6,158 nt of DNA, taken from a bacterium (GTDB lineage Bacteria > BMS3Abin14). The translations under genes and the position numbers were made by a program. Positions 4,926 through 6,158 of this stretch are shown here, piece after piece. The notes under the pieces were generated by a model. The model was not told where the DNA came from, ran no database searches, and was given only the letters and a program-made list of their open reading frames with translations. Each line of letters opens with the position of its first letter. Position 1 is the stretch's first letter. The stretch is taken from positions 1 through 6,158 of the forward strand of contig JARGFV010000131.1 in the NCBI GenBank assembly GCA_029210545.1, given 5' to 3'.

Positions 4926-5882
4926 TCACGGCGCGGTTTCATTTAACCAACTGGTGAAAAGCCGGATCCCCTCTTCCATGGGGACCGTCGGGTCGTATCC
5001 CAACATGTTGCGCGCTTTTTCTATATCCGCATAGGTGACCGGTACATCACCGGGCTGATCGGGCCTGTGAACCTTTTCAACCGGACGACCGAGGTTTCCC
5101 TCGAGCATGGATATCATTTCTAAAAGCGCGACTGTTCTTGATTCACCAAGGTTGAAGATCTCATAGCCATGCGGCTTGTCGAGAGCCAGGCAGATCCCGT
5201 CCACGATGTCTGAAACGTAAGTATAATCCCGCCGGCTCGATCCGTCGCCGTAAACCGTGATCGGTTCCCCGCGGAGTATCTTCCGGGCGAACAGGTGGAT
5301 GGCCATTTCAGGCCTCTGCCGGGGACCATAGACGGTGAAGAACCTCAAGCATGAAAACGGTATCCCGTACAGGTGGTGATAGGTGAAACAGATCTGCTCA
5401 CCGGCAAGTTTGGTAGCCGCATAGGGGCTGACCGGGCGGTTCAGGACGTCCTTCTCGGAAAAGGGCACCTTGTCGTGGACACCGTAGACCGACGAGGAAC
5501 TGCCGAAAAGGAAGTTCCCCACAGGGTGATCTTTCACAGCTTCGAGAAGGACGGTGGTCCCTTTGATGTTCACGTCGTTGTACTGGTTGGGATATTGCAG
5601 AGATGGCCGTACCCCGGCCATGGCAGCGAGGTGGATCACGGCATGGGGTTTGAACCTGGAAAATATCTCCTTTACCAGTTCCTCGTCACGGATATCCCCT
5701 TCCACAAGGGTATAGTCGGGATTATCCAGAACCGCCTTTATGTTCCCTCGTTTAATGGAAGGGTCGTAGAAATCGTTGAAGTTGTCCAGGGCCAGGACCT
5801 CACGCCCCTGGTCCACCAGCCTTTCACAAAGGTTAGAGCCGATGAATCCGGCGCCTCCCGTCACAAGAATCCGGTCAGGCAT
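4926..5882 (-). CDS. NAD-dependent sugar-nucleotide epimerase (UDP-glucuronate 4-epimerase-like)
   Basis: 318 residues from the ATG at 5882, full length for the extended short-chain dehydrogenase/reductase family. The NAD-binding Rossmann motif GGAGFIG is at 9-15, with Asp33 placed to bind the adenosine ribose. The catalytic set is Ser at 128-131 (SSSSVYG), Tyr154 and Lys158 (YAATK). FNDFYDPSIKR (35-45), LAAMAGVRPSL (85-95) and LRFFTVYGPRQRPEMA (179-194) resemble UDP-glucuronate 4-epimerases (CapI/LpsL type). A UDP-glucose or other UDP-sugar 4-epimerase remains possible. The likely role is supplying UDP-galacturonate or a related sugar for surface polysaccharide. The start is set by GGAGGGG 5 nt upstream and by the conserved N-terminus; the frame stays open to an ATG at 5924, but those 14 codons come from repeat DNA and an inverted copy of the gene's own start. 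The start codon sits in the loop of a perfect 22-bp inverted repeat. Confidence 0.92.
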   Translation of the reverse strand: MPDRILVTGGAGFIGSNLCERLVDQGREVLALDNFNDFYDPSIKRGNIKAVLDNPDYTLVEGDIRDEELVKEIFSRFKPHAVIHLAAMAGVRPSLQYPNQYNDVNIKGTTVLLEAVKDHPVGNFLFGSSSSVYGVHDKVPFSEKDVLNRPVSPYAATKLAGEQICFTYHHLYGIPFSCLRFFTVYGPRQRPEMAIHLFARKILRGEPITVYGDGSSRRDYTYVSDIVDGICLALDKPHGYEIFNLGESRTVALLEMISMLEGNLGRPVEKVHRPDQPGDVPVTYADIEKARNMLGYDPTVPMEEGIRLFTSWLNETAP

Positions 5883-5914
5883 GGATTCCCCTCCGGATTC
5901 TTGTGACGGGAGGC
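5853..5914 (-). promoter_or_regulatory. Perfect 22-bp inverted repeat enclosing the epimerase start codon
   Basis: The arm at 5893-5914 is the exact reverse complement of the arm at 5853-5874; the loop is 18 nt (5875-5892). In the transcript the loop carries AGGGG of the ribosome binding site and the AUG, while the GG that completes the GGAGG core is in the stem. The downstream arm encodes the last base of codon 3 through codon 10 (RILVTGG). Those codons are conserved in the family, so the upstream arm must be the derived, copied one. The matching stops sharply at both ends. Such a stem should strongly limit initiation unless melted. It may be regulatory, a recent template-switch event, or an assembly artefact. 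Confidence 0.9.
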
Positions 5915-5970
5915 CAAAGACCATCCACCTTCGCCAGGGCTTCGGCGGACAGGAAGTCCAAAGTCCAAAG
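5914..5970 (-). repeat. Dispersed hairpin repeat, copy D, upstream of the epimerase
   Basis: Read on the minus strand: CTTTGGACTTTGGACTTC, CCTGTCCGCCGAAG, a short core, GCGAAGGTGGATGG, then TCTTTGG. It matches copy B (351-418) in the tandem TGGACT words, CCTGTCCGCCG and the CGAAGG-GGATGG-CTyTGG tail, but has a shorter central hairpin. TCCACC (5924-5929) can pair with GGCGGA (5944-5949) with one mismatch. The copies lie in opposite orientation, about 5.5 kb apart, on either side of the whole gene block. The element ends right where the 22-bp inverted repeat begins. Confidence 0.8.
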
Positions 5971-6010
5971 TTTAAAAACCGCTGACAGGATCAAGTTTAG
6001 AACCTTTCGA

Positions 6011-6055
6011 TGATGGACTCGTAAAAAGTCCATCAACGCGCCCCGCGCGGGGCGC
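6011..6055. repeat. Stem-loop plus GC-rich palindrome, REP-like
   Basis: TGATGGACT (6011-6019) pairs perfectly with AGTCCATCA (6027-6035) around a 7-nt loop CGTAAAA. Two bases later comes the perfect 18-nt palindrome GCGCCCCGCGCGGGGCGC (6038-6055). The combination, a GATGGACT hairpin followed by a CGCGCCCCGCG block, is one I recall as a repeated intergenic element in deltaproteobacterial genomes; that link is memory, not a search. It is non-coding and lies upstream of the epimerase with no gene to its right within the window. Confidence 0.7.
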
Positions 6056-6158
6056 CCAAATCAATGACCGGCAAATGACTAGCCGCGCCTGGGAAGGGCG
6101 CCCGGATCGAGTGCCAATGGCTGTGTGTTCGATCCGTGAGGGAACCGAAAACCACGCT
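6056..6158. other. Right-edge non-coding DNA with an 8-bp inverted repeat
   Basis: No open frame with a ribosome binding site is visible. CGGATCGA (6103-6110) is the exact reverse complement of TCGATCCG (6129-6136), with an 18-nt spacer. A smaller stem, GCGCC (6085-6089) with GGCGC (6097-6101), lies just before it. They may belong to the same repeat element as 6011-6055 or to a gene signal beyond the window. No tRNA fold was found. Confidence 0.4.

Follow-up and report, generated by a model that had tools for sequence, protein, structure and literature searches.

The epimerase locus

The window, that is the whole stretch of DNA analysed, is the complete 6158-bp contig C131 of a 2.72-Mb genome bin in 241 contigs (G000), and carries on its minus strand an intact gene for an NAD-dependent nucleotide-sugar epimerase that starts within a hairpin (Table 1). 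Our inverted-repeat search of the window recovered the two arms as 22/22 Watson-Crick pairs around an 18-nt loop, situated 245 bp from the contig end. With the arm set at 14 nt or longer and the loop at 60 or shorter, the window has no other perfect inverted repeat. The ATG (5882-5880) falls entirely inside the loop, whereas the Shine-Dalgarno sequence GGAGGGG (5894-5888) lies mostly there and takes its remaining two bases from the end of the leader arm. RNA folding of 5840-5930, performed on the plus strand, gave -51.2 kcal/mol (z = -7.0), a value equalled by none of 200 shuffles, and the gene-strand hairpin alone gave -52.0 kcal/mol. The start-codon hairpin is real, and the original prediction of two perfect 22-nt arms around an 18-nt loop holding the AUG and most of the ribosome binding site, with an inner arm made of codons 3-10 and a leader arm that repeats the beginning of the gene in inverse orientation, is borne out, as is its judgement that such a stem lies far beyond chance.

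Table 1. Features of the window at and upstream of the epimerase start
Feature	Position	Strand	Basis or remark
NAD-dependent nucleotide-sugar epimerase, intact, 318 aa	4926..5882	-	PF01370, E 3.2e-68; orthologues 64-73% identical
Hairpin gene-side arm	5853..5874	-	Epimerase codons 3-10, R-I-L-V-T-G-G, start of NAD-binding motif
Hairpin loop AGGGGAATCCATGCCTGA	5875..5892	-	18 nt; start codon and most of the Shine-Dalgarno sequence
Epimerase ATG start codon	5880..5882	-	ORF and alignment with orthologues
Hairpin leader-side arm	5893..5914	-	Exact reverse complement of codons 3-10
In-frame upstream ATG, outside the hairpin	5922..5924	-	Possible alternative start letting the ribosome open the stem
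Upstream repeat block	5925..5975	-	TTTGGACTTTGGACTT, heptamer-like, with a small GC-rich hairpin; related inverse copy at 346-381
Dispersed repeat	6011..6158		Ends the contig; about 40 further copies in the genome, many at contig ends

Genome-wide, the start hairpin of 5853-5914 has no second copy. An intrinsic terminator or REP element was considered for this site and rejected, because one arm is coding and the hairpin is single-copy in the genome. A search of Rfam 15 with the hairpin returned nothing above gathering score, microRNA hairpins appearing only below threshold. The in-frame upstream ATG has no conserved counterpart in the related genomes G002 or G003. The contig breaks at the window end because of the dispersed repeat there. 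Elsewhere in the window, 340-381 and 5940-5975 are two inversely oriented copies of a composite repeat that joins a heptamer array to a TGTCCGCCG hairpin, and the left contig end (1-102) holds three tandem copies of a 34-nt unit.

Inverted copies at gene starts and stops in the lineage

An orthologue of the epimerase is present in 8 of the 12 genomes that make up our lineage sample. The nearest, in G003 (73% identical) and G002 (72%), belong to other genera, and both have a start hairpin at the same place, that of G002 on a single chromosome-length contig (CP070682.1). In G003, CTCCTCCTGTAACAAGAACACGG pairs with CCGTGTTCTTGTAACAGGAGGGG with one mismatch and one G-U (19 net over 23 positions), and in G002 CGTCACCAGCATGCG pairs with CGCGTGCTGGTGACG over 15 bp including one G-U; the loops measure 18, 18 and 23 nt in G000, G003 and G002, which together form one clade (tree support 87/98). 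The G010 orthologue has a decayed hairpin with a 9 bp core. The original prediction had made a regulatory reading depend on whether close relatives possess the leader arm: the closest relatives do, and orthologues at 64-65% identity mostly do not. In G000, G003, G002 and G010 alike, the duplex energy between leader and gene is best with the genome's own gene. When the arms of G000 and G003 are paired by register, the gene arm differs at 6 sites, 4 of which are double (compensated) changes, and the 19 unchanged sites show 0 leader-only changes. The arms therefore stay matched as their sequence changes, a pattern that selection for pairing would give identically. In relatives, a UDP-glucose dehydrogenase-like gene lies directly upstream of the epimerase (loci L007-L013), at a short spacing where the hairpin is lacking (G004, G007, G009) and at a long one where it is present (G002, G003).

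Hairpins of this kind occur at other gene starts as well. A survey that required the start codon in the loop covered 62 epimerase-family genes in the 12 genomes (our own count of distinct genes) and found a start hairpin scoring at least 13 in 7, among them paralogues in three relatives: one galE-like gene each in G003 and G010, and a second epimerase each in G010 and G001. In these hairpins the register is always R-[IV]-L-V, the loop always contains the start codon, and the Shine-Dalgarno sequence lies within the loop or beside it. The remaining genes of four genomes gave 9/1397, array-like and doubtful ORFs included (Fisher p 1.5e-6), and none of 152 epimerase motif sites at 77 loci from other phyla reached 13, the maximum being 9. 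Most epimerase genes of the lineage have no start hairpin. Outside the epimerase family, thiD of G000 (PF08543; L217:2793-2853) starts within a 17/20 bp hairpin whose arm abuts a CTTCGTA array. This hairpin is absent from all ten orthologues with readable starts, and we dropped thiD as a conserved second case since its hairpin is seen in G000 alone. Two further G000 genes, named by eye from their protein sequences and presumably phosphoesterase-like and G6PD-like, carry respectively a 16/16 inverted copy of codons 2-7 upstream with the ATG in a 39-nt loop (L206:207-277) and a 14/14 start hairpin with a loop of 42. The status of another start candidate, at L328, is uncertain, since this is also where an antisense frame terminates.

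The same arrangement is found at 3' ends. With the stop codon required in the loop and a coding arm of at least 10 nt, inverted copies of gene 3' ends were detected at 16 of the 1796 genes surveyed across five lineage members (11/796 in G000, 3/300 in G003, 2/194 in G010, 0/311 in G002 and 0/195 in G001), gene calls being simple ORFs and the surveys covering about 38% of G000 and 9-19% of each of the other four. Stop counterparts are at least as common as start hairpins, and inverted copies at mid-gene sites number only 3/5388 (p 1e-7 against the stops). Control genes from other phyla and E. coli, a small set, gave 0/506 (p 0.03). A T-run follows only 1 of the 16, indicating that these stop hairpins are not ordinary terminators, and every or almost every direct copy at a stop proved to be a tandem array, which implies that the inversion is specific. 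The largest stop case, at L346 of G010, has a 25-nt arm (score 23) and a loop of 20 and is followed by a tandem array.

At starts and stops, the non-coding arms often run directly into degenerate 7-8-nt tandem arrays (CTCTGGACTCTGGACTC, CTGGAACCTGGAAC, ACTTCGTACTTCG). A flanking array score of at least 12 was obtained for 5/16 stop cases against a background of about 5%, and fewer than half of the cases lie clearly next to an array. In the window the array is not flush with the leader arm, from which it is separated by other repeat sequence of about 25 nt. Intergenic hairpins formed by opposed heptamer arrays, e.g. ATCTCAAATCTCA with TGAGATCTGAGAT, were also seen (L161 and L177 in G003, L180 in G002).

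Origin of the inverted copies

The epimerase hairpin is one of a series of inverted gene-end copies, at starts and stops, in this lineage. We propose, with a probability of roughly 60%, that fold-back (intrastrand) template switching, acting near repeats at the borders of genes, produced its leader arm by inverted copying. DNA synthesis leaving a gene toward repeat-rich intergenic DNA would fold back (the replication step and its direction are our inference), copy the last ~20 nt of the gene as their reverse complement and then rejoin the template. At starts the product would be repeat array, inverted copy, start codon and gene in that order, and at 3' ends the order would be mirrored, with the end of the gene first, then a loop containing the stop codon, the inverted copy and lastly the array. 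The arrays would serve as stall-prone repeats at gene borders. Later switches would re-match an imperfect palindrome while protein selection holds the gene arm, resulting in concerted evolution of the two arms. The near absence of inverted copies inside genes would follow, because a copy there would destroy the protein. The hairpin, with its 22/22 pairs and 18-nt loop, has the form of a near-perfect reverse-complement copy of adjacent sequence across a short spacer, and template switching is described as creating perfect stems in one event and fixing existing ones, as proposed for RNA genes (PMC8794818). Of the explanations offered by the original prediction, a template switch beside a repeat element has the best support, as this signature recurs at other starts and stops and often next to arrays. 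It also best accounts for the perfection and the inversion of the copies, their occurrence at either end of genes, their concerted change and the existence of lineage-specific examples like thiD. Several observations fit template switching less well: the excess in NDP-sugar epimerases, in the same register, needs an added seed, 2 of the 5 genomes (G002 and G001) have no stop hairpins, the link to arrays is incomplete as described above, and the evidence comes from comparing diverged genomes. The seed could be a partial complementarity of the RVLVTGG codons to common arrays such as CTGGAACCTGGAAC.

The pattern at the epimerase starts can also be read as a selected translational gate, a reading that we consider possible but doubtful, in which the start codon and Shine-Dalgarno sequence are held in a small loop and the epimerase is kept low or conditional. 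In such a gate the 30S subunit could load only during transcription, as long as the gene arm has yet to be made, or once the stem has been actively opened, and compensatory change would preserve the pairing; both the retention of the hairpin with compensated changes in the G000-G003-G002 clade and the epimerase excess within the lineage, set against the epimerase sites of other phyla, are consistent with this, and a stable structure does occupy the start site. The constant placing of the start codon in the loop and of the Shine-Dalgarno sequence in or next to it points the same way, although the start survey itself demanded the former. However, the hairpins are not confined to translation starts as a gate would be, since the same genomes carry equivalents across stop codons, so initiation control is not needed to explain them; moreover, thiD and other unrelated genes carry hairpins, most epimerase genes of the lineage do without one, and no Rfam family matches above gathering score. 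A perfect 22-bp stem is also stronger than gates are known to need. Mutation and selection may act together: hairpins made by mutation could be retained because they lower or condition epimerase synthesis. The wider proposal, in which NDP-sugar epimerase genes are under the control of self-complementary leaders derived from their own first codons and template switching maintains the match, appears rather unlikely to us. Three other sources of control or likeness were discarded or judged improbable: a common operator or trans-acting site, given that the arms differ among paralogues of one genome and follow their own gene, a short upstream ORF as a ribosome-driven opener, given that reading frames and upstream starts are not conserved, and, as an unlikely case, the remnant of a divergent paralogue, identity extending over only ~20 nt and the loops being alike.

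Perfect arms would also suit a reversible switch in which arm exchange flips the 18-nt spacer and turns the gene off, and the sequence shows that flipping the spacer TCAGGCATGGATTCCCCT would abolish the Shine-Dalgarno sequence and put the ATG out of frame; one yeast study (PMC8604942) reports inverted-repeat spacers inverted by template switching. We give this switch little weight, as no inverted form was seen and the 6-kb window has no recombinase gene. To our knowledge, a spacer of 18 nt is too short for known invertases. The remaining alternative is a chimera that arose in a single metagenome bin during sequencing, amplification or assembly. The small contig and the nearness of the hairpin to its end suggest it, and amplification is known to yield inverted chimeras. 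The original prediction had raised it too, but the two other-genus orthologues have different yet self-matching arms in independent assemblies, one of them a single contig, and similar features lie well inside contigs; a chimera is therefore very unlikely, with next to no chance of explaining the hairpin.

Whatever its function, a helix of about -50 kcal/mol around the start likely lowers translation, either as a by-product of template switching or as an exploited side effect, and may be a target for RNase III. That the epimerase frame is intact and conserved suggests some continuing expression, perhaps through cotranscriptional loading or, in G000, from the in-frame ATG that lies beyond the stem at 5922-5924. 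The findings point to a mutational habit across the lineage whereby gene ends are copied backwards into flanking DNA at starts and stops. If true, strong mRNA hairpins would arise instantly at initiation sites, without stepwise selection, and the lineage would supply naturally occurring cases in which to test how template switching makes and maintains structure, as well as how a gene survives with its start codon locked in a 22-bp stem. A start-codon hairpin, even one with compensatory changes, should not automatically be taken as a regulator.

Relation to known systems

Hairpins at gene ends are familiar from intrinsic terminators and inverted repeats after stops, whose terminator repeats peak 50-80 bp past the stop in one survey (PMC13155455), whereas the structures described here have the stop codon in the loop, one coding arm and a T-run after 1/16. 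RNA thermometers and similar start-site structures likewise place structure around the Shine-Dalgarno sequence or start codon, where it is expected to hinder initiation, but the present case has a perfect 22-bp stem built out of codons of the gene itself, a loop that contains the start, and counterparts at stop codons. The TAACTGA repeats of Beggiatoaceae (PMC4679880) are also short tandem heptamers just upstream of start codons; here the units are other and degenerate (CTCTGGA, CTGGAAC, CTTCGTA) and an inverted gene-end copy is added. Hairpins made or corrected by template switching (quasipalindrome correction; Monttinen and Loytynoja, PMC8794818) share the one-step perfect inverted copy, the matched arms and the multi-base compensation. 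Unlike in that work, the source here is coding sequence at gene borders, at the 5' and 3' ends of several genes in one bacterial lineage, and the copies stand next to tandem arrays and recur on homologous genes.
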